Shown here piece by piece: positions 31,508 to 50,273 of a stretch of DNA of 64,000 nt. Origin of the DNA: Saccoglossus kowalevskii (Eukaryota > Hemichordata > Enteropneusta > Harrimaniidae). The notes under the pieces were generated by a model. The model saw only the letters and a list, made by a program, of their open reading frames with translations. It had not been told where the DNA came from and made no database searches. The position numbers and the translations under genes were made by a program. Location: NCBI RefSeq assembly GCF_000003605.2, contig NW_003105600.1, forward strand, positions 313,961 through 377,960, written 5' to 3'. Within the stretch, counting starts at the first letter, position 1; each line of letters starts with the position of its first letter.

Positions 31508-31651
31508 TTAGTTGTTCCTATCATCTTTATGTTCTGCACACATTAATCGGTGTTTCAATTCTTTTAACTTCTGCAAATCTTCTTCTATATTGTAATCAGA
31601 AGCTTCCTTCAGAGAACTACCAAGTAGTAAGACAGCGCCATGTGGGTTAGT
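31508..31651 (-). CDS. Last exon: C-terminal tail
   Basis: A 144-nt coding part ending at TAA (31,508-31,510), entry phase 0. [13 protein letters not shown] follows the kinase-like NMII, where a kinase would have ..gaVkLaDFG. The DFG Asp-Phe is replaced by Leu-Leu. It ends with a charged helix, [20 protein letters not shown]. The domain stops well short of a full C-lobe, which supports loss of catalysis. Confidence 0.65.
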   Translation of the reverse strand, partial: TNPHGAVLLLGSSLKEASDYNIEEDLQKLKELKHRLMCAEHKDDRNN

Positions 31652-34600
31652 CTACAAAAAAAAATTACTTCGTTTTTATTCACATCTCGCTAAGGCCACT
31701 ATGCTTCGACAGAAAAATGCTCAGTTCACTATGTCTGAGGTATGGACACAACTGTTTACTGTGAACAATTACTAGTTTTAAGATGAAACTGTTGAATTAT
31801 TGACTCCAGTGTCATCAGTGATGGTAATCAACATTCTTGGTCAAATCTAGCACATTAAAATCCACGTGCCACTGGAGTATGCCGAACGCGGCAAACTTCA
31901 CATTTATATAAACAATTCAGAACGAAGAAAATAAAAGCTAACTTACAATGATCATATTTTCTGATAATTTCAGATGACTGTAGCCTTCTTCATGCAGTAT
32001 ATCTACAGCAGCTGATACGTCTTCGATTAGTCTTGTCTTAGTGGCGGTGTTATATGTATTATGTACCGAATTCATTGTATAGGTCTTTGCTTTCAGAACG
32101 GATTTCTGCGTCAGAGGCCAGTACATCCGACACTCCCAGAGATATGTTCTCAGTATATCAACAAACAGATCTCCTGATGTGAAGAGGAATATAACATGAG
32201 GTGGTGTGATAGAGAATATGAGTGCGCCTACAATACCGAATTTATTATATCGTTTGTATAGGCTTAGACAACTTAATAGATTTGTAAAGCGCTTGTTCAT
32301 TTACGACTTTTGTTAACATATCTACGGTTGGGTACGTTATCTCTACTGGTTTGTACAAACTTTTCATTTAATTTGGCATGTAGAAACTAATTAAATCTGT
32401 GCACTGCATTCAATAGTTAATATCTTCAAGAATCTCATTTATATGAGCATTGGTTACATTAATTTATTTTTGTTATCTCATTTTTTTTAAAAACAATTAC
32501 TTCATTGACTAATAAGATTAATAAATGAAGAAGTTCGGTTATTAAATATCTTACATCTACTCAAATGACATTGTCTTTATGGCAAATAAAGATAACATTT
32601 CAAAACGTATTGTGAAATTGCTGTTTGAGTTCATCTGTAGGTGGGACATCAATATACACAAATCAAAAAATTAATGTGTGTAGTGTTTTGTGTTTTAATT
32701 TGAAAACAAACTTATTCAAACCGTGAGTTCTTATGAATATTTAGGATGAATTGGGTCACAAATGTGCTCATGGCAACGGGTGAGTTTTCACTTTAGAAAA
32801 CATGCATACAGATTATTGCAAAAGAGATTCAGATTTAGCAAGGACTATTTCATCATATAGGGTTTTGGGAGATTGTGACTGGCTACTATACTATACTATA
32901 TGGCAGTCACATTACTGCATGATATAAAGATAACAAGGGACAGCAAGCAAGATATAGTTATGATACATACACTAGAAATGTCAATAGGTGTCAGGGGTTG
33001 TACATTACACTGTGAACCAAGCATTGATATACAATAGAGCGCAACAATGGCCGTAGTCTTTATGATGCATATTATTTCAAAACAATCGTAATTAAAATAC
33101 TCTATATAAGGAGCAATAAGTTCTCTTTTTGGTGCATATTATATCAAAACCAGTGTTCTGTTTCGACCCTTGAACGCGAAATCAACGTGCTCGCGGCTAT
33201 AGAATATATATAACACCTAGCTTCTGTCGATCAGATGCCTAGATTCAGACCAAGCATGTTGTAATCTATCATATTATCATAAGGGGAACATGGTCTGTGT
33301 TAATTATAACATACCCAATGTTTCCTGCTTTTTGAATTTCATTCTCATGTATAACCTCATTGCAGTCCATGCTTCGAGTATATGCCCAACTGCAGTGTAT
33401 ATCAACGGGTTGGTCAACGATATGACAGGGAGTATCATAACCACAACCCATCCGTTCACGACAGAGCCCACGTCTACACCAAACAGTCCACACACTGTTA
33501 GAACAGTGAATGGCAAGCAGGCGACCAGAACACTCATTACTATAACGGCCATGTTGAATACAGTTTTCAATTGCAAACGCTTCTTCCTACTGTTCCTAAC
33601 AGCCGACTGGTGACCAACGATTGCGCGATACATAATCAGGTAGCAAACAGTTATTGTGATACCACAGCCGACGTCGACCACCATGAATGAAATGAAAGAA
33701 TAATCCCACCTTGTCTGTATACTAGGACGATGAATCACGGTTAAACACATTTCGTTTTGACCGTAAAACATGCTTCCGAATTGAGGCGTGTAGTAAGCCA
33801 GGAGCGTGACACTCGGTAGCACCAGGCAGAACAACCCCCCTATCAGCATTCTGCACTTGGCGACGTCTAGCCGGAGTTGTTTCATGGGAAAAGTTATCAC
33901 TAATGTGCGATCGACAGTCATAGCCGAAAGAAGCAACAGGGACATATGGTTCGAAGTCTTTGCAATGATTCCAACCACGGTACACAGTATGTTCTCGCTC
34001 CACCGACGATTATAGAAAAGGTAAACTCCTCGATAATATGTATCAGCGTACCCAATTACAAGCAAGTATACTCCCATGAGCATGTCAAATATAGCCAAGA
34101 TGGTTGTAAACGTTGAATCAACCGTCGACTTCGATTGTCGAGTTAATCTGTAGATGACCACATATGCATTAGCTACTATAACTAGAGCGGCGATTATCCA
34201 AACAGCTTTTTGCAAAACATTGGTTGATAAAAGATCGGACTGGCAATGTGATGGCCAGATTACCGCTGGACCGCATTCTTCAAGTGTGATTTGCACAAAC
34301 TCACTCAAACAACAAATGGTGACATCATCTGTAAAACTAAAAATAGTGTAGTTGGTGAAGTGAGAACAGATCGGACACACATACACACAATTGACGGTGT
34401 AAATAATCACTAGACACACTACGTATTCAGTGACACATTGAATTGATGAGCCCGTATAGTTGCTTGACTGTGTAATAGGTGTCAACGGCGCATCCCTCTA
34501 AAACACAAGCCATTGATGTCATTGTGTTAGGTGGAAATTCTCTGACCATGTTAACGTTTCAATGTATGCTTTTCCTCTTAATCAGTGTCAGATATTCTGT

Positions 34601-37600
34601 TGAATTTTACTTACAGAACTTTCAATTGAGACATTCTTTGAACGTATACTCCATGTAGAGGACAATCGGATTGTGTCGTAAATCCTGAAACATAAATTTT
34701 AGGTATTTAGACGTTCCAATTGTTATGATCACTGTGATTTTGTGAAGACTACTTGCCATGGGGTTATGAAACATGGAATGTGTTTTGTCACTGTTGTGCT
34801 TGACATGGTTGAGAACGTAATTTGGCGACTATATTTATTTTTAAAAAAATCCGGAATTGTTCTATTCTTTCATATTTCTGAAGGTCGAGGATTAAATACA
34901 GATTGTAATTACTTCCAGTTCCAATAACACTCGAAGTCCTGAAATGCCGCGATTGTCACATGATTTCGCAACCATATGAAATGAAATGTACATCGTTCAT
35001 GTGATATGTAACTTCAATGTAAAACGACTTGCCACAACCTGTACATACGAACCACGCAATGTATATCCTAAAAGAACTTAAAATAGTCAATAAACCGTTC
35101 TAAAATAAACTATAAGAGAGTTACTCACAAGAATTCTAGTTTGTCAATTCCTGTCATATGGGCTTGGCTGAGAGCAGAGAGTCTGTTGTGAGAGAGGTCC
35201 CTACCAAACAAATTGAAGTAATAATAATTTGTAATAGTACAATTACTGGTAATTACCATGCAATATCAAACTGTTGTATGAAATGTATACAATAATAAAA
35301 ATGGAAATGAGAATGAATATCATTCAGTTAAAATACATGGCATGTAGATACTTACATATGTATTAAATTAACCAGGCCAATGAAGACCCCATCTTCCAGC
35401 TCAGGAATGTCATTATGAGAAATATCCCTGATAAAATTATAATATAAACTACGTTTAATGCGAAAGAATTATTCTCAAACTACGTGAATCCAGTGTGTGA
35501 AAATACGTTAGTATCATTCACAATATTTAGTAATGCCAAATAATAATTTTAATAATAACTTACAACAATCCAAGCCACATTAAATCCTCAAGATCCAATA
35601 TATCACCAACTGAGAAGTTCAGAAATTGCATTTGCAGAGAGCTGAGACGTCTTGAAAAAAAAGATGAATGTTGAAATAAACATTTGGCATAAAATATAGA
35701 TGCAGTGTAATCAAATAATTTGTTTTTGTATTTACTGTCAAATGTGATAGGTAGTACAAGTCAGTGTAATTCCTAGTGATTTTTGTTTGAAACATGTGAA
35801 GAATTTAGCAGGGTGTACGAACACAAAAAAATATCTGTATAAGATGTCAAGAAAATGGACTTTATTTGTTTCTATGTAATCTGCCAGATTATGTATATGC
35901 ATTTGTGGCATATGTGAAGCGTGGAGCAGATGACACGCACTGTCAATCAGACATTGCATTGATTGTAATTTATTGATTTTATGCTCACAAGCTTCTCACA
36001 GAAACGCTGACGTCCAGGCGTGACGTCACAACAATTCCAGAACAATTAGCATCATAACCAACACAGTAACAGCCAATGGGACACTGGAAATCTAAATAAA
36101 GGAAAACTCAGCTTAGATATACACACGCCACTATGACACACTTTGTTTAAGATCTAATTTAGACATCAGTCGCGAATGTATTAATATAATAAGAATTTTA
36201 CATGCATGTCACATTACCACAAAACATTTCATCATCTTGAAGGTCACAGTGGTTGATCCCGTCACATATATATGCAGTATCCACACACTGTGATGTGCTG
36301 CTGCATTTGTAAGTTCCTGTTATACACTGGTGGTTCTCTGACAAGTTCAACAATATGTACATCAGTAATTTAAAATTATTTACAATATAGGATGATGTCA
36401 ATCATGAAATATTATTTAAAATTGTTACGATTAACGTGGTATATCATTCAAAATGCACGAAATACTTCCGTTGGTCATTGTATTATACGCTGTACACGTT
36501 TTTAATGTTTCGCTGTATTTTCAGTACATCAATATATAACATGTTTAGTAACAGTAGGGAGGAGAGCAGCATTCACACTAATAAACATTTACTATGATCA
36601 TACGTTCATCATAGAATATTAGCGGTGTATAATTGTAATGCATACCGCAATGATGTTCATCTTCTCCCATTGGGCAATCTACCGCGCCATCGCATCGCCT
36701 ATGTAATGGAATGCAGTAAGCATCTGGACACTTTAAAGTCATAGGGGGACACGGAGATGATTCTGAAAGAAAGGAATGTACATCATATAATATCATATAT
36801 CTCTCCGAGTATCTCAGCTGCAAGGATATTAAACTACATGTATGTACTGTGATGTATTTCTAGACGGTCACTGATATTATCAATATCTTTATTTATTTTT
36901 TTGTTTTAAACGGAATGTAAGAATTGATGCAAAATATTCTTACCACAATTCTGCAAGTGCGATGCATCCCGGCACCCAATGAGAAATCCGTGTTCATCTA
37001 AATCATAAAGGCAGTGCATCTTCTGAGAAGCACACACCCCGTTTTTGCAATGAAAACCACCATCATCACATTCATCATATACGCCTACACGATGATATAT
37101 TATATAAATAGTATTGTATTGTATAGTGAAATACGAATTAATCTTTAAAGTTGAAAATATTTTTATGAATTGAGATATCTGTTTTATGATATATGAATGA
37201 GATACGAAATTGCTGTTGAAATAAGTTGTCATTGAAATAGTTACAACTGCAATTGGAGGGAAAGGTAATCAAGACTATATTGTATACAGATGTGGATTAT
37301 GTTTTCATTGTTTAACATACCACATTGTAGATACTCGTCTGGTGACATTTCTCCTGGGCAGTATACACAGTCATCAACGCCATCGCACTGCACCGTGTTA
37401 GGCAAACAAGACCCATCTAAACACTCAAAACCGTTGCAGATATCTTGAGTGGGTGATAAAACCATAACAAAACAGAATCAGATTTCCTGCGTTGTACTTC
37501 AAATAACAGAATGCGAATAACACAAATTATGCAATAATATTGTTAATTAGAAGTCAATGTCTAAAGGTCAATATAATTATAATTAATAATATGTTAATCG

Positions 37601-40600
37601 CTGTCTATTCTATTCTATTCTATTCTATTCTATTCTATTCTATTCTATTCTATTCTATTCTATTCTATTCTATTCTATATTGTATTCCAACCTTCACACA
37701 TAGTAACTAATTCATCACTGTGATCCAAACACTGACTCTTCTTGTCGCATATTTGATTGAGAGGAATACACTGACCATTGTCACATTGGAAAGCTTTACT
37801 GATAGAGTTTTCACATATCTGGTGTTCTAAAGACAATAGCGTAAAAATAATATGATAGAAATATGAAAACGTTGGTAAATGTCTGGTGGAGATATTTGAC
37901 TAAATATACCGAACTGGTGGACTTCTTGTCGTACATAACATAACACAGCTAATCGATTTAAAATCTCCTCTTTGATTACAAATGGCATATGTCATATGGA
38001 AGTAATATGAGAAATCAATGCTGTATCACAAACGGAACAGCTGACTATATTATTATTATTAATGTTACCAATGATAACTTTTACTTCAATAATGGAAACC
38101 GAGTAACATAATACTACGTAATACAAAGTGTACTTGGACATGAAAAATATGTCAAGAGCATAAAATTTTTTATGAAGAGTTTGTTGATATCATGATTCTG
38201 TTGTATTAGTTTCAGAAATAAACTGTACAAAGTCTTACCGCAGTATCGTTCATCTGAATTGTCGTCACACTCATTGATATAGTTACAATAGTATGAAAAC
38301 GGCAGGCATCGACCATTATCACAGGTGAACTCGGAGCATTTAGTAAAGTCTGAAATACAAAACAAGTCACTGAGCACTATATTGATTTTAGTAGTATTGA
38401 TGTCCATCGACGCAAATACGTATAATGTACAATTACTACATGGTATACTGTTTAGTTTACTGAAACATGACTTTTACGTATCTCACCACAATTCAGTTCA
38501 TCACTACCATCAAAGCAATGTTCGATCTGGTCGCAAATATATACACGCTGAATGCATTCACCACTTTGACACATAAACAGGTGCGCAGGACACAGGTTGT
38601 CTAAATATATGGTACAACAAACGTAGCTAGCATTAGAGATTGCAGAGAAGAAGTTATTGTACAGTTATTGAGATGACATTATTATAAATATGCTGAATTA
38701 TGGATAAAATAAATATATTAATAGCTCGGTGATACAAATAAAACTGTTATAATATTGCATATCTAAAAACATAATTTGCAACAGGAATATTCAAGGTTGT
38801 ATATAATAATATCGATAGACGTATCAGATGAGAACAATATTACCTTTACCACTGACAACCGTTTCTGTAACTCCGAGGGCAGTAGACAGTTCTAGTAATA
38901 AAATATCATGGTAGTTTTCACATTTTACAACAGACCAAAATTGTCCAGCTAATCAGCGAATCAGTAATATCACAAGCACAATTACAAGTCAGGTATCGCA
39001 TAAAGTGAAAAATTAGTGTTGTACTTGAAACAAACATAGTGCATAGACATGATGTATATTTCATATTCATAAATACTGCTGCACAAATCCAAAGAATGAT
39101 CTAACCGTCTAATTTTTGTCATGCACCATTAACTGTCTACGTACTGGGAAATTTGTGTTAGATATGCAAATATATGGGTCAGGCATTCAGTAAAAGGCCA
39201 TCGAAAATTATTGACTTCACTCGTTTATAAAATGCCGCGTGGACGTATTGGAAAGTGTTTCAGAAGAGTTAAAATGTCCTTCATATTTGGAAAGTGTACG
39301 TCAGGTTCACGTCAAATTCAAACCCTTTCTGTTGTTTATATAGGACGCAAATAGAATCGCGTCACTGAACGCAGACGTTCGGTACGATCGCCGTACTGCC
39401 TTTTTACATGCTTCGCGGTGTTCTCGTAATAACCTGATATTTTTAGCTTTTAGGCTTTTCACTTTCATCCTAACGCCTGTATTTAAGACCTCATTTCAAA
39501 TTCTTCCAACCTAAAGTTCTCCGCGCACATAAATTTGATACATCCATGGCTAGTGGCGATTTTTCACGGATTGTGAAACTGTCACGGTTTGAATCAGGCT
39601 CAACATTAATGACTATGTTACAAATGCATCACAGAAAGCGTCTCTAAAAGTAATCATATTACTTAATCACAAAATGGTAAACTAACAGTAATCGGCGTTC
39701 ACGTGGGGCGATGTAATTGTGTAAATGAGCCAGAATATCGATACGATGTATTGAATGCGTCTACAATTACTGCGTTAATTTTTGGCTCTAGAAGCTACGA
39801 GATGCACGAGATAATAATGATATAAAACTGGTGTAGTAATTTTCATTTTTTTTTCGACTCTTTGTGTTTCGTGGATCAAATTCTTTTCGATGACCCTAAT
39901 TTAGATACCGTTTGGAAATGTTATTTCTACTCCTCTAATAATAACAATTTGTTGATTACTCACCATTCTCACTGATAATATTAGCTGCTTTTTCACATAC
40001 AATTTGGTTCGTAATAATTGAAGTACAACTGACATCATGCCAAGCATCGGTTGAGTGCAGTTTAGCGAGATAGATGGAAACACAATTCTCATATTTTCCT
40101 CCATTTGGCTGGGCACTGAAGATTAATAATTAATAATTTGTAATAATAATTTGTCACGGAGCACATTAAAATGACTGTAAATAATATGACATTAGCATAT
40201 TAGCATAGTACACATGTATATAGTATATATAATTTGAACGCTTTGTAAACCATAGACTTAACATTACCAGTGATTTAATACTACAGTGATGTTTTCATTT
40301 CGCAAATATTGTTTTGTTACACATCAATTTCTCTCGCATGATATCCAGGAAAACAAAACAGTCGGTGTGATGTGAAAGAAAGGGATTTTACAAATAGAAA
40401 CGAGTAGTTATGTGACAACTGCAGAAACCGTGATGTGGACGATGCCAGGATGCCACTGTGCATTGTACATATTGAACGATGAATGTATATGTTAGTACTT
40501 ATTACTGTGACCATATAATACACACATATGTATCCAGTAATAAAATATTATGAATTACGTCAGCACGTACATTCTCATTTAACAATATACAGTATTACAT

Positions 40601-43600
40601 AATGTACCTTCCAACACTCCAATCACTATAATGAAAAGGTGTTCCATCATTCCATCTGTATCGACCTTCAGCGGTTTCATCTGTTAAGCCTGTGAAGTAA
40701 AATAATATTATTTTGGTGACTATTTGCCTACTGATGGGTACGTTGTTAACTAGTAGCTGTACTGCATTGATAATGATAGAATACAAACAAGTGTGCATAT
40801 CTCCTTACATGGGTGACTGTTTTTAAACAGTTTATCATGCACAATTTTTAATAGATATTGAGAAAAATTAGGATTCATGAAAATACGATATACTCAGCAA
40901 CATAATATGTAAATTAGAAAACATTTCTGAGACTTTGAAATGGCTTCAAAACCCATTATCAGATTGTCAAGAAAATGTTTTCAAAAGTGTAGAAATGACC
41001 GTAAAATTTACTGAAAGTATAATATAAGCAAAACATCAAAATATAATCTCGTCCTGATCTCATTCATTTATTAATTGCCCTACATAGCACAAACTCGAAT
41101 ACAATTTTTCGAGCTATTATCTGCTTTTTTCGAAAATCAAACCCATTCCATACGCATTTTAACGTGGTTGAAATCTACATATATATTTTAACATGCTCAC
41201 ATTGATGATGTTTGTGATAATCGATTGGACATTGGATGGGCTAAAGCAAGAGATACGTCACGTACGCATGAGTCAGAAGGCCATAGCGTGTCATTGTTTA
41301 CAAATAAGCGGCTCCCCATGAACTATGCGTTATTAGCGTGCGTTGTTAACATCGCGTGTGACTCAATTTCCGCGCGTGCGCAGGTGACGACCCTCCCACT
41401 TTAACTAAAACATAATTATTGACCAAACGTACAGTTCAATAAAAGGATTTAAGTCGACTTACTTACCAATATAGGTGTATGTTAATGGCTTTGATGCGAG
41501 CACTGAATGTATAAACATAGCTACTTCTTCATCACCTATACTGACTAAATTCGATGAATGTTGTAAACAATACTCGTCTGCGTCATACCAAGTTATTTTC
41601 TTGTTCATACTCGTCTGTTTATAGCATTGTTTTTTGTACATCAACCACTCGGCGTCACACGAATAATCTAGGTCAATGACAGATATACACGAGATACTTT
41701 CACATGATGGAAAACGGGTTAGAGTATTAGTGATCAGCATTGTCCTTTATTGCGTGGTAACCCGATCAGAAAAAGGATGTGCATAATAATGAGTCAGAGC
41801 TAGTGGATCGCATTATTTAAAAACCCAATACACTGAATTGAATATACAATCAACGGTAGTTTGCAACAAAAAAAGAAATTGACATGTACACATCGAACGT
41901 TCACGAGAGCAAACAACCAGCACGCTCATGGGCAATGTGAAAGAGTACTGTTATAGAACGTTTGTTGTTCAAACAATTTGTGCAACTATCGGGTGATTAT
42001 CAAGTACATTCACCCTCTTCTTCGGATGATCGTGCATTGGTCTTTCTAGTTATCACCTTTAAATATAGCTAGGCGTAACGGTGGTGTCGATCAATCATTA
42101 TGAACCCGGTCTTTTAATAATAAGATAAAATAATAAACGTGATACCTTTTGTGTCGTTTTCTCCAACATAATTAACGGCATGATGATATGTGTAGTTAGC
42201 AAGAAACCCTATGCTATTATCTCTGATTCCATCTGATATGAATGTTATTAATAACTCATTTAGATCAGATAATATGGGCTGTAATGGTTGTGAAGCTCGA
42301 CAGTAACGTCCATGTTTGTAACCATGTACACTCGAATTACCACTAAATACTTCAATATAATCAAATCGACATGATTTCTCCACTCGGCCAATATCACACT
42401 GAAGCACGTTCAATTGAATATAGGATGATGTCGGAGCTTGTAAAAGCCAAGAACAGCGACTGTCAATCGGATATGGTAACGGGTAATCAATTGATGAGAC
42501 AATGCCTTCAGTGGAGTCGCACAACATTGTATTCATACATACTCTTGAAATGTTTGCACAGGAATATACATCTGTCAGGAAACGTTATTAAAAGATACAG
42601 ATAATAAACAATGCATCAAGTAGTTCTTGAATGTAAGTCCATGTTTTGTTTTTGTTTTTTTGTAAAGTAAAACGTGAAATATCAGGATAGCAACATATAA
42701 CGACTCAATCTGTAGCGTCATTGAATTGAAAGACCAGAGGAAGTAGCGATACCAGAAGCTGTTCTCGTTGGAAAGTTGTACTTACCTTCAGTGAGGCGAA
42801 TGTGGTAATCGACAGAAACGAAATCGTAGAGCGGAGCCACTTTTTCATACATCCAATGCGTTTTGGCTCCAAATTCACAATACCCGTTCTCCTCCCCATA
42901 AATAAAGTACCGGCAAAAAAATTCACTTTCCGTTAGGCAATAATGTTTGCATTGTACAAATCCAAATGCAATGAACATTTTTACCTCTTGGAAAGGAATC
43001 ACAGAGTGCAGATCCCAATCCACTTTCATTCCATGTCGCACAAAAAAATGTCCAGCTTGCTCTACAACAAAATGTAAACAGTCGCCAATGATAATGCTTC
43101 TTATATTTCCTAATTCCGAGAAAACGCAGACAGTGTGAGAATCTGACAGTATAGGTATAATAGTACTTATAGAAACTGATTGTGCAAAACGTAAATGTAG
43201 ATGGAACTTGCCTTCATTGTATGTTTCACATTCATATAACTCGAAAACACCTCCAGAAAGTCTTTTAAAGTCGTTTGTTGCTACTTCAAAGCGTAAGAAT
43301 CTTGTTGTTAATGTAGGGCATAGAGATGTGAAAAACATCTCGCGCCCTGTGCGCACTTGAAAAACCTACAGGTAGTAAACTCACATCGTTATTATTTGCA
43401 TCGTTAGTGTTATTACCATCACCCCTAGCCCATAATCGTCATCCATCTTCCCTTTGATTCTATCAATAGAGCGAGCTATTTGAGTTTACCATTTTTTGGC
43501 GAGGTCAAAGACACCTCAGTCATAGCTGTAACGAGTATTAAACATATTAATTATTGCACAAATCTATATTTCAATAATGCGCGTAATCAAATACTGTGTG

Positions 43601-46600
43601 CTTATAGATACTTACGATTTCCCGATTTTGAGAGTTGCTATAGCTGACCCAGTTGATTCCATCTTCACTGTGCTTAATAAGTAACGTTTCAGCGAGTACG
43701 GGAAATACCCACAAGTGTTGAATGCTATCACTGTCTGTGTTAAGCATTCGTGCCACTGACTCATGCAAATAGACGTCAGTTGTCATAATAGTGAGTGTGT
43801 CAATAGAAAAACCTGTCAATTCTGTATTCACCCCAAGATCCACTTGATAATACGGTGATTGGTCAAACTCTGACGGACAGAGAAATGCATACAATAACCA
43901 ATCCATGTCATAATCCAAGAACGTCGTCAGTAGAAACGTTAAAGCGTAATTGGGGGTATAGGAATGATCAAATCTCCCATACAGTTCACTTGACTTACTG
44001 ATCTGACTAGCAGCTATACGCCTGTCTGCCAAACCAAGTGGTCGAAAACATGACATGCATTCCCAATTATGTTGTTCTGAGAAATAAAAATATATATATA
44101 TATTCGTGAAAGGTGTGTTTCAGACGCCATCATTATTATTATTATTATAACTAGTCAGATATCATATAGTAGCTACGCATTCAAGGCATATAATAACCCT
44201 CCTGTATATTGAGAATTAATATCATAATATTATTATTATGGTAACATTCCTATAACGCTAAATAGCACACTATTCAAATAATACATTAACTGACAAGGAG
44301 AAAACTACTCATAATTAATTATGGCATTATATATAACTTACTGAAAGTATAATTATTGGAATATCCCCGAAACGCCGACGAGAAATACTTAATAATGTAG
44401 TAACACGGGGGGAGGGGATGTTAAGCATGTTACTATAATAGCCTATACATCATCTGAAAACATAGATATAAGCAAATATAATGAGGACACGGGGCATATG
44501 CCGTACCAATGTTTGTCTTACAGGATAAATTATAATAACGTTGCATGACAACGTCTCTAATCGTAAACAAATAGTTTATTGGTTATGTTGTTAAAAAGAT
44601 AATATATGAGTAAAGTTTCCTGTAGATATATACATTGAATAGAGATATGTTCAGTAAGTATTATCATAATTACAATTAACATACTACTATATTTGTCAGT
44701 CCATTACCTTAAAATTCTGAACTGTAAATTGATTACAATTAATTGACATTTGCACATATTTTCGTAAAAAATGTTACCTTCGGATGATACTTTTGGCACA
44801 CATAATACGGGGGCTAATCTTTTGATTCCCCCACTTTGCGCATCCACGATGTGATTCTGAGCTCCCCCACAGTAGCTGGACTCGTACAGCACACGGCGAA
44901 GAACTCTTCCCTGAGTCCAGTAAAATTGACATGATTGAAAACCAAAACGATACAGATTAGATACATCTTCCAGTGACGCTATGCTGGCATTGTTGTCCTT
45001 ACATGCCATGAGAGCTGCTTCATACGTGAACGGTCCAGCCAGAGGAATTGGTATGGCTTAAATCAAGAAATAGAAAACGTTCATTTGTTCTCATTTGTTG
45101 GAAAACGTGGTTGGAATGGCAGTTCGTCATTTGATACATAGTTGGTGGCATTATATAATTCAGAAAATTATATTAAACACATTTATAACACTACATATAA
45201 ACCTTACCTGTTTCACATATGACTCCTGTGAAACCTGGCTGACAGATGCAAGTGTGGCTATTCAATACTGGTACACATGTGCCCGCGTTGAGACAAGGGG
45301 TATTCACACATAATTCATAATTTGGATGCTCTGCAAACAATGGCATGAAATTTTGAAGGCAACATTATGACATAATATTGAAGACTGAATATACTGTGTT
45401 GAAAATTAATGAATGTTAGTGTCAGATAATACCACAGTCTGTGCATTTAACTTTACTGATATGTAAATGTATTCGACGAAGTATGTATAAAATTACAAAT
45501 ACCGCAATTTTCCCCAGGAAGGCCTACATTGCACATGCCAAACTCGAATGGTTCATAGCTTGTTCGACACCACAACCCCGGGAGTGCAAGGACTTGTGGG
45601 TTTCTGCAGTATGGCCCTTCTAACATTCCTTCGATTTCCAATGCAAAGACAAAATCAGATGGTTCTTCTGCTAACTCCTCATCAGTAAAAATCTGGATGC
45701 ACTTGACGCCATCTTCCGTCACTGACACATTTCCACGATAGTCATAACCAGCAGGTTCATTGTAACATTCATCTATGCCGCCTAAATGAGAAACAATATC
45801 GGAATCAAAACCGTTAATTCCTAATAGTAGTTGCTCAATAGACATTATACATGGCCATCTAATTTGCATAAAAACACATCGAGATAGAAGATGGGACATA
45901 ATAACTGTGTTTTGAACTGACGTATATATATATATCATTTATCTGTACATGGGTTTCAGTGCGAGTAGCGTCTAGGCCTCTAACATGGCTGTGCGCCCTC
46001 CACCAATCAGATCGCCGGATTCACGATTTATATTCTCTGTATAAATTGAGAGAAGTTAGTTAGAACATGGATTTGTCAGCTGATCTTGATTGAAAGGAGA
46101 TCGTCAAAAGAACACACATGATTAGTTAATCTAATGCAACATTTTATTAACCTGAAACAATGTGACATAATATTGTATAATATACTATTTCCATTTTTGA
46201 ATCAATGATTTCTAGCCACGAAGTCAACTGTATCGCGCAAAACAAAAATAAAATTGAATAAATTGTTTCAAATTGTTGCCATGTTAGAAGCCGGTCATAA
46301 AATTTGTGCACGGCCGTGACACAATGAGTCACATTACCAAAAACATGGTTAATTTCGAATTTAAAGAATATATATTTCATGGAAGTGTCTTCAATAATAT
46401 AAGAAATTTAAAACAACTGGTCTACACCGGTGCCACTCAAGGTGGGCTATATATGAATTAGAGTATAAATAAGAATTTTAGTTGTAATGATTTTTCGTGT
46501 ATATATGATGTTCAAGTTACAAACAAAACCCATTTAAGTATTCGTGGACATACTAAAAATAAAACGTGACGTAAAACGCGTTAAAGTGCGTGAATTATGT

Positions 46601-49600
46601 CATATAAATCGAATCATTTGAATCGAATGTTTTTATGAATAATTTATCGCATGACGTAATGCTTAAATTATTTATTATCTCGCACCTGACAATAGTGAAA
46701 ATGCACGTGTTTCAAGAATATTCCCGAACGGGCGACTGTTGTCATTGTCTGAACATGCAAATCTTCCATGTTTCCCACGACTGACGTAATTCAAAATGGC
46801 GCAAACAAAATGTTTAAAAGTGTACTTTCTGTGATATGTAAAGGTGACAACTTTAATTAACCGATCCCCGGTAATTAAAATTGTCATTTAGATTTTATAA
46901 CAGCAATTGTGTTTTCTAAAATAAAATAAAATTGTAAATATATTATGCTTTCTACTAAAAACAATTAAATTGATATGAATAATTGAATTCACACATAAAG
47001 TTGTATTTCGATATGCAGTCCTAAAACTCGCTGATTACATCGCCATATTTGATGCAAATTAACTAAAAAATCAAACTAATAAGACAAGTTAGCAGCTTGC
47101 TATTAGCATGTATAACAAAGACATTTTTATTATTGTATTGTTTGACTTTCCACTTCTTACGTCGTCTATGTTATATTTAATATACTAAATTACGCCTTAT
47201 TTTTTGCTGTGTGTTGTGTTTCTTTCTGTGTGTTGTGTTGTTTGCTGAATTGTTGTCAGGTATATTAGTCATTTTAATTCTGTTCTGTACTTGTGAATAT
47301 ATTAATTGGAAAATGTTGATTGAGTGGGTGTATTTAATTTTATATAACATGGTCGCTTGACTCACCATATGTTGAATATACTTCGATTTCATATATAGAC
47401 AATGCGTGAATTCCCGGGAAATGGGTCATGAATATATGGTCTGTCCTCATGTAGCAGTGAATGTTGATCCAAACAATATCCCCAGATACTCGACTCATGG
47501 TTATATCATCGCCGTACCCTCTACGGATGACGTCACTAGATAAGGACGTTGTACATGTGAAAGTACCGCCATTCTGATTCGTGAGGATGGCAAATGACGC
47601 CAACTGAGGCACTGCAGCAATTTAAAGAAAAACAAAGAATCCTAATGTCTGGTGTGTACATATATTATTTATTTATTTATTTATTTATTTACGATCACAT
47701 CGTGTTATTCGATTACATGGAATGAAATAATATTCAATTCAGTATTCTTTTTTTATACATGCCATCATGGCAACCCGAGAGCGCAACCTCCAAGTACTTA
47801 ACCTTACAGTTAGACTGGCGCAGTCGGGACGATTAATTTGTTTTCGTAGTTTAAATAAAATTAAAAAAATCGCGAAATGGAGGTATTAGCGCGAAATCGC
47901 CCTGACTGGTTTATTCTGCATATTCAACCATAATATTTGTGTTTCAATGTGAATAGATATATACATTTACCTCTTGGTGATTTGGTTATTTTTTCTCGGA
48001 TGTTCATATTTTGATAAATCACGGTAAAATGTTCTGTTTTTTTTTTTGTTTTTTTTGCAGTTTGTGATTGCGGTGCTTAAGTTAGTGTACGCTCAGCTTC
48101 GTTACTAATTGTCCAAGGTGTGAACGGATTATTTAGCCCGGGAACAATAGACTGCGACGCGTTTCCAGACCGTGAATAGAGGGAATGTGCAGTAACACTA
48201 TCTGGCAATGGTGAAGAAAACTTCCAAAATATTTTTCCATCGATATCTGGTCTAGATTTCCTCTAGCTTCTATTCAATTAGTTATTCTATCAAGGGTAAT
48301 CCCTGATCACAGACAAACTAACAACATTCCAGTTCCCAGTGCAGCCTCATCCAAATTTCTCCCAAACTCTAATCTAGTGGTGATTGTCTTCATGGCAACC
48401 AGCACCTGATTTGTCACTGAATCTAATTGTTTGGTCATTTTCGCAAGCTAAATGTCTTCTACTAGACTGCCAAAGCCTCATTGTGAGAAAGAGGACTACG
48501 TGACTTGTTTTTGTCTCTCAAGTATGCATTCTCCAAGCCTCGACTAATTACTGTCGTTGGTGGCATAGTTCAGGGTCTAGAATCATCGATTCAACGAGTT
48601 CAGTCCTTGCTTGGAGAATGACAAATATGGTTTCATTTTTGCCGCCACTGCGTCTACTGTTTTAAATACCATGTTTTATATTGGCCGGTGCACAGTAGAC
48701 ACGATGATCATAGAGAATGTAACACTATTTGGGGACAAAAACAAGTTTCTCGATTCTCTCCCGCTCTCATTGAGATCTCAGTGGCAATAACGCCCAGTTC
48801 CCATTTTCTAGTATCATCGTAATAAGCTCATATACCGGTAATCTGTAAAAATGATATACTAAACCAAGATACGTAACAGTATGGGAACTCACGGTCAATT
48901 GTGTCTGTACAAATCCTGACCAATTCAACAATCATGATATCGCCAAGTATTATTTCAATATCCCGGTGCCAATCATACTGTTTATCTGTGAAACACTTCA
49001 TGTCCACACTATTCCTGGCGATAATGTTGGTGTGACCGCGAAACACGTCCCCATACTCTCTCCTGAACGTTATGGACCAGTCGACTCCCATTGATCGTGA
49101 ATGCGCGTTTGGATATCTACCATCGTTGTACGACCAACAGTTGAACAGTTCGTTCGCACACCACATGGCTCGGTTCAGGGCCACATTGTGGAAAACTTGA
49201 AATGTAATGAAAACGCCACGTAAACATGCTATCTTAAAATATCCATTAGTAAATATGTGTATCACTGTTATTAAAGTCTTACTAGAATAGATTATTTTTA
49301 AACAAGTTGGTAATGAAAGTCAAACTATTTGTGGCTACATAGTCTACAAATGTAACGGTTTCAATACTATTGTCATCTGCATTTTGTTTTTGGTTTTGCA
49401 GTGTTTGTTCAGTAAGTAAGTGTCATAAATTAGTTTACGCGTATCTGTTGACCGACTTAATTAGCTGATTACGAGCGAATTGCTGTGTTATGTCTGTCAT
49501 CGTTTAGGCCTATTTGAAGTTTTGGACGGAACTTGGCTCAGTGATTTGGAACTAATTACGAGATAACCGTAGCTATTCAGACTATTATTTCTGACAGTTG

Positions 49601-50273
49601 GTATCCGTAGTTATTAATGTAGTGAACGATTAATCAAAAGATATGATGTATTCAGTACTTAGTGTGATTGGCTTTATGATTGAAGGTTACGCCTTAGAGT
49701 CTTTTTACTGCTTTGTAATTGGTTAGAGTTTTGAAAATGAATAAAGAGAGTTTTGAGTTGGTCTTGGCGAGTACTCCACGATAGACGCAGTCCAGCCTAG
49801 GAGAGTCTAGTCGAGTCCTGGAGAGTCTAAGACAGTCTAAGCACAGTCTTGGGCCAGCCTTGCAATAGTCTTGGGGATTTTTCCCCAGGGCGCTGTGTCT
49901 TATAGAGTGCTCGACAGACCGACTAAGACGAGAGTTGAAACGTATTTCGTTGTGTGTGTCTTATTTGACTGTAAAGTTAAGTGACTTTCCCGATCCCGTA
50001 CCTCAAGGGGACGAGATATAGAGACGAGACAGGATTCCCCCCTGACACGTGTGGAGAACCCCAGAAGAGAAGTATTTTCCCCTGATATAAGCAATGTTAT
50101 AATGATGTAATGTAAGCGATGGCACAAAAAGTGATGAAGGTGCTCACCTTTACTGCTGGTCTTAAAACACGTCTGTCTGAATGCATCCCAACAACAATCG
50201 TTATCCTGGCAAGCACTCTCGTCCAGCGGCCACATTGCACATTGTGTTCTGTGCTTCGGGGCTGTCCAGCATG
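31508..50273 (-). CDS. Mosaic LGR-type GPCR, relaxin receptor/GRL101-like (5' end not found)
   Basis: Twenty-eight exons, read from high to low coordinate, give a membrane receptor of about 2,050 residues. Order: trefoil-like, F-type-lectin-like, kringle, EGF, Link, F5/8C, PAN/apple, CUB, C-type lectin, seven LDLa, LRR N-cap, four LRR exons, seven-helix domain, kinase-like tail. Ectodomain introns are nearly all phase 1, the classic pattern for module shuffling, and LRR introns are phase 2. LDLa-LRR-7TM is the layout of type C LGRs (relaxin receptors, molluscan GRL101). Those receptors sit in the plasma membrane and signal through G proteins. The lectin and CUB modules suggest binding of glycans or matrix, but the ligand is unknown. 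The first placed exon starts in phase 1 after an acceptor, so signal peptide and start codon lie further upstream. Two fused or adjacent genes are the main alternative; I see no terminal or first exon in between. Confidence 0.8.
31947..32227 (-). CDS. Exon: partial protein-kinase-like tail
   Basis: A 281-nt exon, entry phase 1 (matching the 7TM exit), exit phase 0. [19 protein letters not shown] resembles the kinase hinge and alpha-D region (P.lI.ey...GdL...L). [20 protein letters not shown], then SENMII resembles alpha-E and the catalytic loop (diA.al.yLH..g..HrDLK..Nil). The catalytic HRD Asp is not present (HLKLSEN). No N-lobe is seen. A degenerate or inactive C-lobe fragment acting as a cytoplasmic docking tail is the best reading. 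A chance resemblance cannot be excluded. Confidence 0.6.
32228..33314. other. Intron between 7TM and kinase-like exons
   Basis: About 1.09 kb. I searched the minus strand for an exon coding for a kinase N-lobe (glycine loop, VAIK) in phase 1 and see none. It is AT-rich and featureless. Confidence 0.45.
33315..34497 (-). CDS. Exon: seven-transmembrane GPCR domain (LGR class)
   Basis: One 1,183-nt exon codes for the whole helical bundle, like the last exon of glycoprotein hormone receptors. About 85 residues lead to [20 protein letters not shown], the hinge and TM1 step known from relaxin receptors (DLL.n..LR..vWv). TM2 holds [13 protein letters not shown] with the sodium-site Asp. TM3 starts after a Cys (about exon residue 172) that can pair with ECMC-like Cys 251. 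The DRY motif reads VDRT. TM6 has ACLPF, and TM7 has NPLIYT (about residues 363-368). Spacing and motifs say rhodopsin-class LGR. The exon leaves in phase 1 at TTGG before GTATGT. Reading through that donor would end the protein three codons later. Confidence 0.9.
34615..34684 (-). CDS. Exon (or decayed exon): LRR 4, 70 nt, frame conflict
   Basis: Flanked by good splice sites (TTTCAG and GTAAGT) but 70 nt long, not 72. Its first part reads [15 protein letters not shown] in one frame and its end reads MSQLKVL in another. Both are LRR-like, as if two bases had been lost from a 72-nt repeat. Entering in phase 2 from LRR 3 uses a third frame, open but not LRR-like, and exits in phase 0. That fits the 7TM exon if its acceptor is at 34,498/34,499. 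Skipping this exon also keeps frame, by using the acceptor two bases on (34,496/34,497). An assembly error is a further option. Confidence 0.5.
34685..35128. other. Intron, nothing recognised
   Basis: About 440 bp, AT-rich, between LRR 3 and the 70-nt LRR-like exon. A frame at 34,742-34,927 on the other strand has no domain. Confidence 0.5.
35129..35200 (-). CDS. Exon: LRR 3
   Basis: A 72-nt exon, phase 2 on both sides. [20 protein letters not shown], then KLEFL. It follows the canonical LRR consensus. It exits with TT before GTGAGT, so the next exon should enter in phase 2. Confidence 0.88.
35356..35427 (-). CDS. Exon: LRR 2
   Basis: A 72-nt exon, phase 2 on both sides, exactly one 24-residue repeat as in LGR genes. 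[20 protein letters not shown] shows the LxxSxNxIxxLxxxxFxxLxxL pattern. Confidence 0.88.
35564..35650 (-). CDS. Exon: LRR 1
   Basis: An 87-nt exon, phase 2 on both sides. [20 protein letters not shown], then [10 protein letters not shown], an LRR-like hydrophobic pattern with the phase-2 borders used by LGR genes. Less regular than the next two repeats. The 338-bp intron upstream shows nothing else. Confidence 0.7.
35989..36091 (-). CDS. Exon: LRR N-terminal cap
   Basis: A 103-nt exon that switches intron phase from 1 to 2. [20 protein letters not shown] has the four cysteines of an LRRNT cap (C-x3-C-x-C-x6-C), then a first strand. The same cap follows LDLa in relaxin receptors. Confidence 0.78.
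36218..36337 (-). CDS. Exon: LDLa repeat 7
   Basis: A 120-nt exon, phase 1 on both sides. [18 protein letters not shown], then [19 protein letters not shown]. Six cysteines and an intact CDG..HCD..DDE cage. It is the repeat next to the LRR block, the position the single LDLa holds in relaxin receptors. Confidence 0.88.
36646..36762 (-). CDS. Exon: LDLa repeat 6
   Basis: A 117-nt exon, phase 1 on both sides. [17 protein letters not shown], then [19 protein letters not shown]. Six cysteines, and the CDG..DC..GEDE cage is intact. Confidence 0.88.
36944..37084 (-). CDS. Exon: LDLa repeat 5, degenerate
   Basis: A 141-nt exon, phase 1 on both sides. [18 protein letters not shown], then [23 protein letters not shown]. 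All six cysteines remain, but the SDE cage is replaced by a longer ..DASHLQ.. segment. The usual calcium site is probably altered or absent. Confidence 0.72.
37321..37443 (-). CDS. Exon: LDLa repeat 4
   Basis: A 123-nt exon, phase 1 on both sides. [15 protein letters not shown], then [25 protein letters not shown]. It has seven cysteines and a few inserted residues between the CDG..DC part and the PDE acidic end. A variant, but clear, LDLa. Confidence 0.82.
37598..37679. repeat. (TATTC)n pentanucleotide microsatellite
   Basis: About 16 uninterrupted TATTC units inside the intron after LDLa repeat 3, only about 12 bp from its splice donor. Length variation here could plausibly affect splicing of that exon, but this is inference. 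Confidence 0.95.
37692..37826 (-). CDS. Exon: LDLa repeat 3
   Basis: A 135-nt exon, phase 1 on both sides. [20 protein letters not shown], then [20 protein letters not shown]. Six cysteines and an intact D..HSDE cage. The donor reads GTTGGA, weaker than its neighbours, so the 3' border is a little less certain. Confidence 0.82.
37827..38238. other. Intron, nothing recognised
   Basis: About 410 bp, AT-rich, no exon seen. Confidence 0.5.
38239..38349 (-). CDS. Exon: LDLa repeat 2
   Basis: A 111-nt exon, phase 1 on both sides. [20 protein letters not shown], then [13 protein letters not shown]. Six cysteines and the DDNSDE cage are intact, although the first cage Asp (CD) is CN here. Confidence 0.88.
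38487..38600 (-). CDS. Exon: LDLa repeat 1
   Basis: A 114-nt exon, phase 1 on both sides. The peptide [17 protein letters not shown], then [19 protein letters not shown] has the six LDLa cysteines and an intact CD..xxC.DGSDE..C calcium cage. LDLa modules in relaxin receptors help trigger signalling, and elsewhere they bind ligands. Confidence 0.9.
38844..38891 (-). CDS. Exon: short linker (16 residues)
   Basis: A 48-nt exon, phase 1 on both sides, acceptor ATTACTAG and donor GTAATA. It encodes [17 protein letters not shown], a Ser/Thr/Val-rich linker between the CTLD and the first LDLa. Splice sites and phase fit, but a short exon of this kind could be chance. Leaving it out keeps the frame. 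Confidence 0.5.
38892..39963. other. Largest intron between lectin half and LDLa half
   Basis: About 1.07 kb separating the CTLD from the LDLa repeats. I looked here for a stop codon with terminal exon, or a first exon with signal peptide, that would split the locus into two genes, and see none. The sequence is otherwise featureless. Confidence 0.45.
39964..40115 (-). CDS. Exon: C-type lectin domain, part 3
   Basis: A 152-nt exon, entry phase 2, exit phase 1. It reads [15 protein letters not shown], then AWHDVSCTS and NQIVCEKA, the end of a CTLD with its last three cysteines. The sugar-contact motif is QPN, a mix of the EPN (mannose type) and QPD (galactose type) signatures. The WND position reads WHD. 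Calcium-dependent sugar binding is possible but the preference cannot be inferred. Confidence 0.85.
40608..40689 (-). CDS. Exon: C-type lectin domain, part 2
   Basis: An 82-nt exon, entry phase 1, exit phase 2. It continues [19 protein letters not shown], then YSDWSVG, the WIGL.d...g.f.W.DGt...y..W..g core of the fold. The odd length is balanced by the next exon of 152 nt, which supports the model. Confidence 0.85.
40690..41466. other. Intron, nothing recognised
   Basis: About 780 bp between CTLD parts 1 and 2, AT-rich except a GC-richer patch at 41,320-41,395. No exon is seen. Confidence 0.5.
41467..41667 (-). CDS. Exon: C-type lectin domain, part 1
   Basis: A 201-nt exon, phase 1 on both sides. 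The peptide [19 protein letters not shown], then [20 protein letters not shown] gives the C..gW....CY....  ..W..A...C...gs.L.si start of a long-form CTLD. It ends YTYIG, the start of the WIGL strand. Parts 2 and 3 are at 40,608-40,689 and 39,964-40,115. The 477-bp intron upstream (41,668-42,145) shows nothing else. Confidence 0.85.
42146..42541 (-). CDS. Exon: CUB domain
   Basis: A 396-nt exon, phase 1 to phase 1 if the acceptor is the second AG in TTTCAAGAG. It shows all CUB steps: [72 protein letters not shown]. The acidic DYIEV and ..SDG.. positions used by calcium-binding CUB modules are kept. CUB domains mediate protein-protein contacts in secreted proteases and receptors. Confidence 0.85.
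42786..43365 (-). CDS. Exon: end of F5/8C plus PAN/apple-like domain
   Basis: A 580-nt exon, entry phase 0, exit phase 1. The first ~45 residues close the discoidin fold ([12 protein letters not shown], then [10 protein letters not shown], matching aRyiRi..El.GC). The rest, from about residue 90, has [40 protein letters not shown] and [12 protein letters not shown]. That fits a PAN/apple module (s.e.C...C....Crsf.Y....C.l) used for protein or sugar binding. The stretch between the two domains (about residues 46-90) is unassigned. Both domains in one exon is unlike the rest of the gene. Confidence 0.7.
43616..44076 (-). CDS. Exon: F5/8C (discoidin) domain, main part
   Basis: A 461-nt exon, entry phase 1, exit phase 0. 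It begins with the family signature ..[20 protein letters not shown] (C-x-x-PLG-x-x-x-x-I-x-x-S-Q-I), then [18 protein letters not shown] and [12 protein letters not shown]. These fit the W-x-QVDLG..xxxxGI and Y-S-x-DG-xx-W steps. F5/8C modules bind cell-surface sugars, lipids or collagen (DDRs, neuropilins). An insert of about 35 residues lies between the SQI and QVDLG parts. It joins 42,786-43,365. Confidence 0.8.
44077..44777. other. Intron, nothing recognised
   Basis: About 700 bp, AT-rich, with ATT-type short repeats near 44,132-44,150 and 44,231-44,240. No exon is seen. Confidence 0.5.
44778..45056 (-). CDS. Exon: Link (hyaluronan-binding type) domain
   Basis: A 279-nt exon, phase 1 to phase 1. 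The peptide [20 protein letters not shown], then [28 protein letters not shown] and APVLC carries the four Link cysteines and the eA..aC...ga.iA.. and dG.vrYp..CGG patterns, with LRRVLY in the YP position. Link modules bind hyaluronan in CD44, TSG-6 and lecticans. The proline of the YP motif is missing, so ligand binding is uncertain. Assignment from pattern only. Confidence 0.75.
45208..45330 (-). CDS. Exon: EGF-like domain
   Basis: A 123-nt exon, phase 1 to phase 1, coding one EGF module. Cysteine pattern: [14 protein letters not shown], then [15 protein letters not shown], all six cysteines with the C-x-C and GFTG-x-x-C signature. The calcium-binding D-x-D/E start is absent, so it is probably a non-calcium EGF. 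It sits between kringle and Link modules as a spacer. Confidence 0.9.
45503..45781 (-). CDS. Exon: kringle domain
   Basis: A 279-nt exon, phase 1 to phase 1. Six cysteines sit in the kringle order: [42 protein letters not shown]. The YRG, YCRNP and PxWC signatures are all visible (here ALPGLWC). Kringles bind proteins and lysine-like ligands in clotting, growth-factor and ROR-type receptors. The loop before PYCRNP is long and acidic. Kringles on GPCRs are not a combination I know of. Confidence 0.85.
45782..47365. other. Intron, nothing recognised
   Basis: About 1.6 kb of AT-rich sequence between the lectin-like and kringle exons. Frames present are short, lack paired splice sites in phase 1, and show no domain pattern. 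Confidence 0.45.
47366..47611 (-). CDS. Exon: F-type-lectin-like domain, second half
   Basis: A 246-nt exon, phase 1 on both sides. It ends ..[15 protein letters not shown], which fits the LTLCEVEVYG end of F-type lectin domains, preceded by the G..V.I.C strand pattern (VWINIHC). Joining CTG across the intron gives ..TIDLPQLAS. The domain is complete over the two exons, about 180 residues, longer than the usual ~140 because of the first-half loop. Confidence 0.6.
47612..48892. other. Intron with short hairpin
   Basis: No coding exon recognised. A perfect 12-bp inverted pair, CATTCTCCAAGC near 48,525-48,540 and GCTTGGAGAATG near 48,612-48,623, brackets about 75 bp. A short TTTA run lies at about 47,665-47,692. 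The GC-richer part (48,060-48,800) may be old repeat DNA. Confidence 0.4.
48893..49195 (-). CDS. Exon: F-type-lectin-like (fucolectin fold) domain, first half
   Basis: A 303-nt exon, phase 1 to phase 1. The peptide starts [10 protein letters not shown], matching the NVALG(K)PA start of F-type lectins and F5/8C relatives. It ends [19 protein letters not shown] then VELVRICTD, matching the family pattern C-x-H-T..W-x-VDLG..I..V.I.NR. The loop after the first strand is longer and cysteine-rich. The usual His/Arg fucose-binding residues are not evident, so sugar binding is uncertain. It joins 47,366-47,611. Confidence 0.6.
49196..50147. other. Intron containing a repeat-like, GC-richer patch
   Basis: The part at about 49,720-50,095 is richer in GC than its surroundings. 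It holds degenerate 10-11-bp tandem units around AGTCT (49,790-49,870) and an AATAAA at about 49,739-49,744. It looks like a fragment of a mobile element, possibly a lone LTR fossil, but I cannot fix ends or a target duplication. No host coding sequence is seen. Confidence 0.35.
50148..50273 (-). CDS. Exon: trefoil (P-type)-like module
   Basis: A 126-nt exon, phase 1 on both sides (acceptor TTACTAG, donor GTGAGC). The peptide contains QCAMW, then [11 protein letters not shown] and QTCFK. The CC-W-D and C-F-K pattern is that of P-type/trefoil modules, which bind mucin-like glycoproteins. It is shorter than a typical trefoil between the first and second cysteines. The acceptor shows this is not the first exon. 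In-frame sequence upstream of it has no ATG. Confidence 0.6.

Follow-up and report, generated by a model that had tools for sequence, protein, structure and literature searches.

Does one gene join a long chain of carbohydrate- and matrix-binding modules to the seven-helix domain (7TM) of a relaxin-receptor-like GPCR, and if so, what kind of receptor does it encode? The question is raised by the minus strand between positions 50273 and 31508 of the 64,000-nucleotide stretch of DNA analysed here (the window). An independent rebuild from the raw sequence gave 29 exons (Table 1), of which 28 join in phase into one frame over 19 kb, the exception being exon 26. The single frame of the preliminary description stands, with 28 of 29 exons in place of its 27 of 28. 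Introns are GT-AG throughout, except for one GC-AG intron at the exon 8 donor. Exons 1-25 comprise 1,449 codons with no stop, against 59 and 132 stops in the other two frames of the same join, and the frame runs on through exons 27-29 until the stop codon at 31508. Omitting exon 26 yields an open protein of 1,913 residues, not approximately 2,050 as first proposed; retaining it brings a first stop at residue 1477. The intron phases are as originally claimed: ectodomain introns are in phase 1, save for the phase-0 intron within F5/8C and a phase-2 intron within the C-type lectin domain (CTLD), LRR introns are in phase 2, and all of the 7TM lies in one exon. The modules run in the order trefoil, the domain of exons 2 and 3, kringle, EGF, Link, F5/8C, PAN, CUB and CTLD, followed by seven LDLa and the LRRs; the single exon of the LGR-type 7TM comes next, and two exons of tail close the gene.

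The 1,913-residue model is without a signal-peptide exon. Four candidates for this exon were found in about 28.7 kb, one of which looks good; this putative exon (+ coordinates 64158 to 64038) lies just beyond the window edge. The paralogous locus C4310 has one signal-peptide exon candidate of its own. Upstream of the receptor, on the same strand, an open frame at approximately + coordinate 75865 from the window start resembles an NXPE-type (PC-esterase) gene to our eye, and could mark the 5' limit of the receptor gene. A GAATA-type pentanucleotide tandem repeat occupies window positions of about 37604-37677, in the intron after exon 17.

Table 1. Exons of the receptor gene model, in order of transcription, with window coordinates and the basis of each assignment.
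Exon	Feature	Coordinates	Strand	Basis
E1	Trefoil (P-type)	50148..50273	-	Phase 1 both sides; Pfam below cut-off here, above in C4310
E2	First half of a domain without Pfam/PDB match	48893..49195	-	Open, phase fits; C4310 counterpart
E3	Second half of the E2 domain	47366..47611	-	As E2
E4	Kringle	45503..45781	-	Pfam 34.7 bits vs cut-off 34.3; genome scan
E5	EGF	45208..45330	-	Pfam 1.5e-8
E6	Link (Xlink)	44778..45056	-	Pfam 33.1 bits vs cut-off 27
E7	F5/8C (discoidin), first part	43616..44076	-	Pfam below cut-off; PDB DDR2/FVIII/neuropilin
E8	F5/8C, last part; GC donor	43212..43365	-	Pfam below cut-off; PDB
E9	PAN/apple	42786..43061	-	Paralog Pfam matches; three-sequence profile
E10	CUB	42146..42571	-	Pfam 1.9e-16
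E11	CTLD part 1	41467..41667	-	Pfam Lectin_C 8.4e-19 over E11-E13
E12	CTLD part 2	40608..40689	-	Pfam Lectin_C over E11-E13
E13	CTLD part 3	39964..40115	-	Pfam Lectin_C over E11-E13
E14	Short linker exon, phase 1/1	38844..38891	-	Open, phase fits; this basis alone
E15	LDLa 1	38487..38600	-	Pfam Ldl_recept_a, 7 stretches
E16	LDLa 2	38239..38349	-	Pfam Ldl_recept_a
E17	LDLa 3	37692..37826	-	Pfam Ldl_recept_a
E18	LDLa 4	37321..37443	-	Pfam Ldl_recept_a
E19	LDLa 5, long type	36944..37084	-	Pfam; CRDxxHLxxC end common to three paralogs
E20	LDLa 6	36646..36762	-	Pfam Ldl_recept_a
E21	LDLa 7	36218..36337	-	Pfam Ldl_recept_a
E22	LRR N-terminal cap, phase 2 end	35989..36091	-	Phase; paralog exon models
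E23	LRR	35564..35650	-	Phase; Pfam
E24	LRR, 72 nt	35356..35427	-	Phase; Pfam; paralog exon models
E25	LRR, 72 nt	35129..35200	-	Phase; Pfam; paralog exon models
E26	LRR exon, 70 nt, frame broken in assembly	34615..34684	-	Phase; paralog scan
E27	LRR cap/hinge and all seven TM helices	33315..34336	-	Pfam 7tm_1 5.1e-17; PDB RXFP1
E28	Tail: kinase-like hinge-alphaE-catalytic-loop piece	31947..32173	-	PDB, tail alignment, profile searches
E29	Tail end and stop	31508..31651	-	Alike last exon in other loci

The domain search bore out part of the proposed chain directly. In the window copy the kringle (2.3e-8), EGF (1.5e-8), Link (7e-8), CUB (1.9e-16), CTLD (8.4e-19), seven LDLa (7.5e-41), LRR_8 (4.6e-9) and 7tm_1 (5.1e-17) all lie above their Pfam cut-offs, whereas the trefoil (19.2 bits against 21, E 0.0011) and F5/8C (20.1-21.7 bits against 28.2, E 2.3e-4 to 7.3e-4) fall below and PAN has no Pfam match. 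F5/8C is backed by PDB matches to chains of DDR2, factor VIII and neuropilin (best 6.9e-4), and a profile of three PAN sequences reaches plasminogen at 0.0092; an AlphaFold model of the single PAN exon was uninformative (pLDDT 42). In C4310, trefoil, PAN and kringle are above the Pfam cut-off (23.2, 26.7 and 40.6 bits, respectively). C4150 has PAN at the cut-off (21.4 bits), kringle (23.7 against 34.3) and Link (21.1 against 27) below it, and, in the same place, a candidate F5/8C which has no Pfam match and aligns to that of the window at 1e-6 in a pairwise test. The domain of exons 2 and 3 is 32% identical to its C4310 counterpart. It had been called a lectin, a name rejected here as searches of both Pfam and PDB came back empty; read by eye, its end motifs suggest a fold that is perhaps F-type-lectin-like. 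The calcium-site motifs of the CTLD, QPN and WHD, are only partly canonical. On Pfam, PDB and paralog evidence, the original claim is upheld that a single receptor stacks six or more distinct adhesive folds on a core of LDLa, LRR and 7TM.

The core itself places the receptor amongst the LGRs. Its 7TM carries DRT at TM3 and NPLIY at TM7, and finds RXFP1 as its best PDB match (9.1e-28), followed by glycoprotein-hormone receptors; the marks of Adhesion GPCRs, GPS/GAIN or 7tm_2, were absent at E<=10 from the pieces scanned with Pfam. The earlier label of a relaxin-receptor-type protein is too narrow, as the seven LDLa exceed the limit of one, at most two, for RXFP (type C1) receptors. A plain relaxin receptor is therefore rejected; the tree agrees, albeit not firmly for so long a branch. 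Since seven LDLa are combined with few LRRs (four LRR exons, one of them, exon 26, broken), the layout is that of GRL101, and by this layout the receptor is GRL101-like (type C2). The tree comprised 14 7TM sequences from this genome, each 200 residues or longer (three shorter ones were dropped), together with human RXFP1 and LHCGR, and 3 of its 13 inner branches are firm. It sets the window copy within a group of eight (91/87: C46, C4150, C4224, C167, C4310, C2733, C1352 and C814), apart from the pairing of C1365 with RXFP1 (96/98) and that of C3459 and C3619 with LHCGR (100/100). Within this group no branch is longer than that of the window copy (1.9), the place of which is flagged as unsure.

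A search of the genome with the 7TM returned 17 loci at E<=1e-8, itself included, and contig stretches of three of the other 16 (C4310, C4150 and C3325) were compared by tblastn. The 7TMs of C4310 and C4150 are about 30% identical to that of the window copy, and both loci are co-linear with it on one strand, the aligned pieces being roughly 24-63% identical. C4310 presents trefoil, E2, E3, kringle and EGF, then a 10-kb run of N where Link and F5/8C would be expected, then PAN, CUB, CTLD, LDLa, a weak LRR match and 7TM. C4150 presents kringle, Link, PAN, CUB, CTLD, LDLa, LRR cap and 7TM, as well as EGF, with no N run from kringle to 7TM and a 4.7-kb gap just before the kringle. Because of these gaps no paralog displays the full chain. 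C3325 has CUB, CTLD, LDLa and 7TM in the window order; upstream of it, two more CUBs above cut-off and a below-cut-off EGF-like piece are candidates for the same gene. Seven LDLa could be modelled in each of the three paralogs, the fifth always of the odd long type, with boundaries that in C4310 are partly weak. When phases were left free, those of the window were chosen in 16 of 20 exon tests (one a tie), and in the other four the best two choices are 1-4 score units apart, on scores of 106-132; a 21st test, on exon 1, was dropped as its start had been set wrongly. Parts of the chain recur elsewhere: C1266 has kringle, EGF and Link, the last of them below cut-off, ordered as here, and C4224 has a weak Link upstream of its 7TM. 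Matches to the CUB part fall on at least 14 contigs (51 of 705 candidates scored), and 7 of the 14 are without a 7TM at E<=1e-8; parts of the chain may therefore also exist without a 7TM.

Several other features of the genome came to light in these searches. On C1938 (1521087-1535500, + strand) a kringle, the best Link match of the genome and a weak CUB lie close together on one strand, perhaps as another multi-module gene. The minus strand of C4110 bears C-type lectin exons every 8 kb or so, with another CTLD between them on the plus strand, and is a tandem array of a two-lectin unit. CTLD-like and CUB-like matches occur in very long frames (5,929 and 3,278 aa) at C4613:481026 and C1598:134283. 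On the mitochondrial contig C4830, COX1 occupies one strand and ND1-like and COX2-like frames the other; COX1 reads TGA as Trp, with eight ATA codons at places where Ile or Val is usual and a single AAA at a place usual for Lys, a codon usage that argues against an echinoderm.

Beyond the 7TM, within the interval covered by the preliminary description and unmentioned there, lies a kinase-like tail. The window tail searched singly matches only kinases in PDB (15 of 15), albeit weakly (best 0.045); in Pfam it matches no kinase, Acetyltransf_2 at 0.055 being the only match, and against the genome it finds itself alone. Six other loci have an exon after the 7TM with an alike segment, recognised by eye and by motif and then aligned. 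Where it is readable (C46, C4310, C4150, C3325, C814 and C167) a phase-1 donor follows the 7TM, a matching tail acceptor and a phase-0 donor are splice options in common, and an alike last exon is found in C46, C4310, C4150 and C167, with a broken copy on C1342. A profile of the seven tails, aligned in one consistent register, reaches MNK1 in PDB at 7e-6 and 381 sequences at E<=10. In the best 60 of the 381, 59 are kinases or of kinase fold and the exception is TLP2; two entries named 'MGC80376 protein' are counted in the 59 as IKK-beta. Without C3325, its best member, the profile reaches MNK1 at 2.6e-4, and 40 of 40 PDB matches are of kinase fold, as we presume RNase L and Bud32 to be. The reversed-profile control gave two matches, neither of them a kinase. 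The C3325 tail alone amongst the seven matches a Pfam kinase family well (PF07714, 25.6 against a cut-off of 23.1 bits; Pkinase appears in two tails, best 0.026). Its 17 PDB matches at E<=0.01 consist of 12 JAK2, two tyrosine kinase and three IKK-beta entries, with JAK2 chains among the best (0.0017); several of these we take to be the JAK2 pseudokinase domain.

The kinase match spans approximately 50 residues. The window tail has only about 45 residues before alphaE, and is more degenerate than other family tails; exon 29, in our reading, occupies the beta8 to alphaF position of a kinase. An N-lobe was not recognised in the tails read, nor DFG in the last exons read, and the HRD aspartate is absent from six of the seven aligned tails, that of the window included, C814 having an Asp at or near the place. 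Thus kinase homology is present C-terminal of the 7TM, and a complete kinase domain with an N-lobe is absent. The profile evidence makes it very likely that the tail descends from a protein kinase, of which it is probably a shortened, inactive form. Nor is the receptor a one-off. Searched against the genome, the C167 tail finds nine places, itself included, and the C3325 tail finds itself and C1468, each of them adjoining a family 7TM. Adding the window brings the total to 12 places, and at each the tail adjoins a 7TM match on its own strand. Of these, 11 sit next to members of the 17 7TM loci, among them the C1342 tail, which runs 30 bases into a partial 7TM match bearing stops; the twelfth is next to weaker 7TM pieces on C4150. 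Six 7TM loci (C1365, C2734, C3459, C1571, C1047 and C3619) are those where a tail was not found. At C4150:33968-34847 (+) there is another 7TM piece, likewise with a tail, on the strand opposite to the nearby family member.

The best overall explanation, to which we assign a probability of about 0.7, is that of one GRL101-like (type C2) gene encoding a module chain, a 7TM and a kinase-like tail, with a role in recognition. The module chain would bind several features, of carbohydrate, membrane or matrix, on microbes or tissue. This binding would be relayed to the 7TM through the base of LDLa and LRRs, in the manner of RXFP receptors, and the 7TM would then turn on a G protein. The tail, predicted to be incapable of phosphorylation, would serve as a docking surface. 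It is attractive to consider, although we rate this at somewhat below even odds, that the GRL101-type LGRs of this genome are GPCR-pseudokinase fusions bearing up to about ten kinds of glycan or matrix module, a diversified recognition family which pairs G-protein coupling with a kinase-derived dock. Such fusions would fall outside the groups of PMC12716839 if the animal is not a sponge, choanoflagellate, oomycete or amoebozoan.

Is this one intact gene? The preliminary description had doubted the introns 39,964-38,891 and 42,146-41,667, which might separate a secreted multi-module protein (exons 1-13) from an adjacent, plain LDLa-LRR-7TM receptor, and their lengths in the window (CTLD-linker 1,072 nt, CUB-CTLD 478 nt), like the seven CUB contigs devoid of a listed 7TM, leave some room for this. 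In the paralogs, however, the corresponding introns are short: CUB-CTLD introns measure 155, 653 and 118 nt in C4310, C4150 and C3325, and CTLD-LDLa introns 511 nt in C4310 and 388-406 nt in C4150, albeit 2,026 nt in C3325. Since order and strand are also the same in all three loci, and snail GRL101-like genes join CTLD and LDLa in one protein (PMC12297450), the two-gene reading is rejected as exceedingly unlikely, the worry largely falls, and the architecture is in all likelihood that of a single gene. Whether this copy is intact turns on exon 26, which falls two bases short of the 72 nt of its neighbours and breaks the frame. In C4310, C4150 and C3325 an LRR exon of 72 nt stands in its place and is in phase, the scan having looked for in-phase exons only, so that it could find no others. 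The assembly holds no second copy of the stretch to judge by, and assembly error, decay or exon skipping may each be responsible. The broken exon, the longest branch and the more degenerate tail mean that the window copy could be decaying, a pseudogene of an otherwise functional family. We regard this as unlikely, as 28 of 29 exons are open and joined over 19 kb, skipping exon 26 restores the frame, and assembly error explains the defect as simply as decay.

The two remaining questions concern the tail and the ligand. A chance likeness to kinases in a short helical piece would accord with the weak E-values of the single window tail, the good Pfam kinase match of one member in seven and the low-confidence fold of a single tail piece (AlphaFold pLDDT 59, uninformative). 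It is nevertheless quite improbable, given the strength and single register of the profile, the persistence of its kinase-fold matches without C3325, the clean reversed control and the above-cut-off score of C3325 itself. More open to argument is the possibility, which we rate as less likely than not, that the receptor answers to a peptide hormone: the LRR/LDLa base would bind a peptide of insulin/IGF/relaxin type, and the extra modules would merely place the receptor in the matrix. The retained base and the closeness of the 7TM to relaxin receptor 1 are consistent with this, and IGF has been proposed as a GRL101 ligand (PMC8286064). Against it stand the short LRR block and the existence of a separate RXFP1-like locus (C1365), whilst several divergent copies, C3325 amongst them with its CUBs and CTLD before the LDLa, fit recognition better. 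Recognition of microbes or matrix rather than of a peptide hormone is put forward tentatively, at rather less than an even chance; the imperfect calcium-site motifs of the CTLD count against it.

If transcripts confirm the gene model, it would describe a GPCR with an ectodomain very rich in modules, and provide a route for invertebrate LGRs to act in recognition, for which there is already a hint in the snail schistosome-resistance locus. LGRs would, through the kinase-like tail, join the GPCRs with kinase homology, and the tail prompts the question of whether the same feature has gone unnoticed in other published GRL101-like receptors. With binding modules, a 7TM and a kinase-like tail in one protein, cells could have a means of sensing microbes or tissue matrix. 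Among the matches listed in the open-licence literature there was no LGR with kinase homology and, in keeping with the preliminary description, no GPCR uniting kringle, Link and trefoil.

A number of parallels can be drawn with known systems. RXFP1/2 (type C1) offer the closest 7TM of known structure, but have one LDLa, against seven here, and a longer LRR block, and RXFP1 is paired with the separate locus C1365; starfish type C1 receptors have one or two LDLa in the account drawn on. Lymnaea GRL101 and type C2 LGRs share many LDLa, few LRRs and an LGR 7TM, whereas GRL101 is described in the passages cited with twelve LDLa and six LRRs only, and the ambulacrarian species studied there have one type C2 ortholog only, in contrast to the several related loci found here (PMC8286064, PMC11863921). 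The Biomphalaria SudRes2 GRL101-like receptors bring together CTLD, LDLa, LRR and 7TM in one protein, and the CTLD N-terminal of the rest that marks this type is present in the window receptor too; the snail receptors likewise form a multigene family with a proposed role in recognition, and RNA aligned to 11 of 12 of the genes (PMC12297450). Unlike the present receptor, they are not described in the parts of that paper drawn on with trefoil, Link, F5/8C or PAN, and kringle, CUB and kinase have no occurrences in its main text (PMC12297450). The new part is consequently the modules before the CTLD, since the CTLD-LDLa-LRR-7TM arrangement is already published in Biomphalaria. Amphioxus GPCRs bear modules of the same kinds (kringle, C-type lectin, CUB, LDLa and discoidin), but are of the Adhesion class, with no Link or trefoil in the sections cited, whereas here the 7TM is of the 7tm_1/LGR type and accompanied by LRRs (PMC2246102). 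Finally, GPCR-TK and GPCR-TKL/K proteins occur in choanoflagellates (GPCR-TKs also in sponges), their authors having found none in other metazoan lineages according to the part of the paper drawn on, and the lineages named for GPCR-kinase fusions also include oomycetes and amoebozoans (PMC12716839). These share with the present receptor a 7TM with C-terminal kinase homology; there it is a kinase domain, whilst here it is a shortened kinase-like piece on an LGR (PMC12716839).
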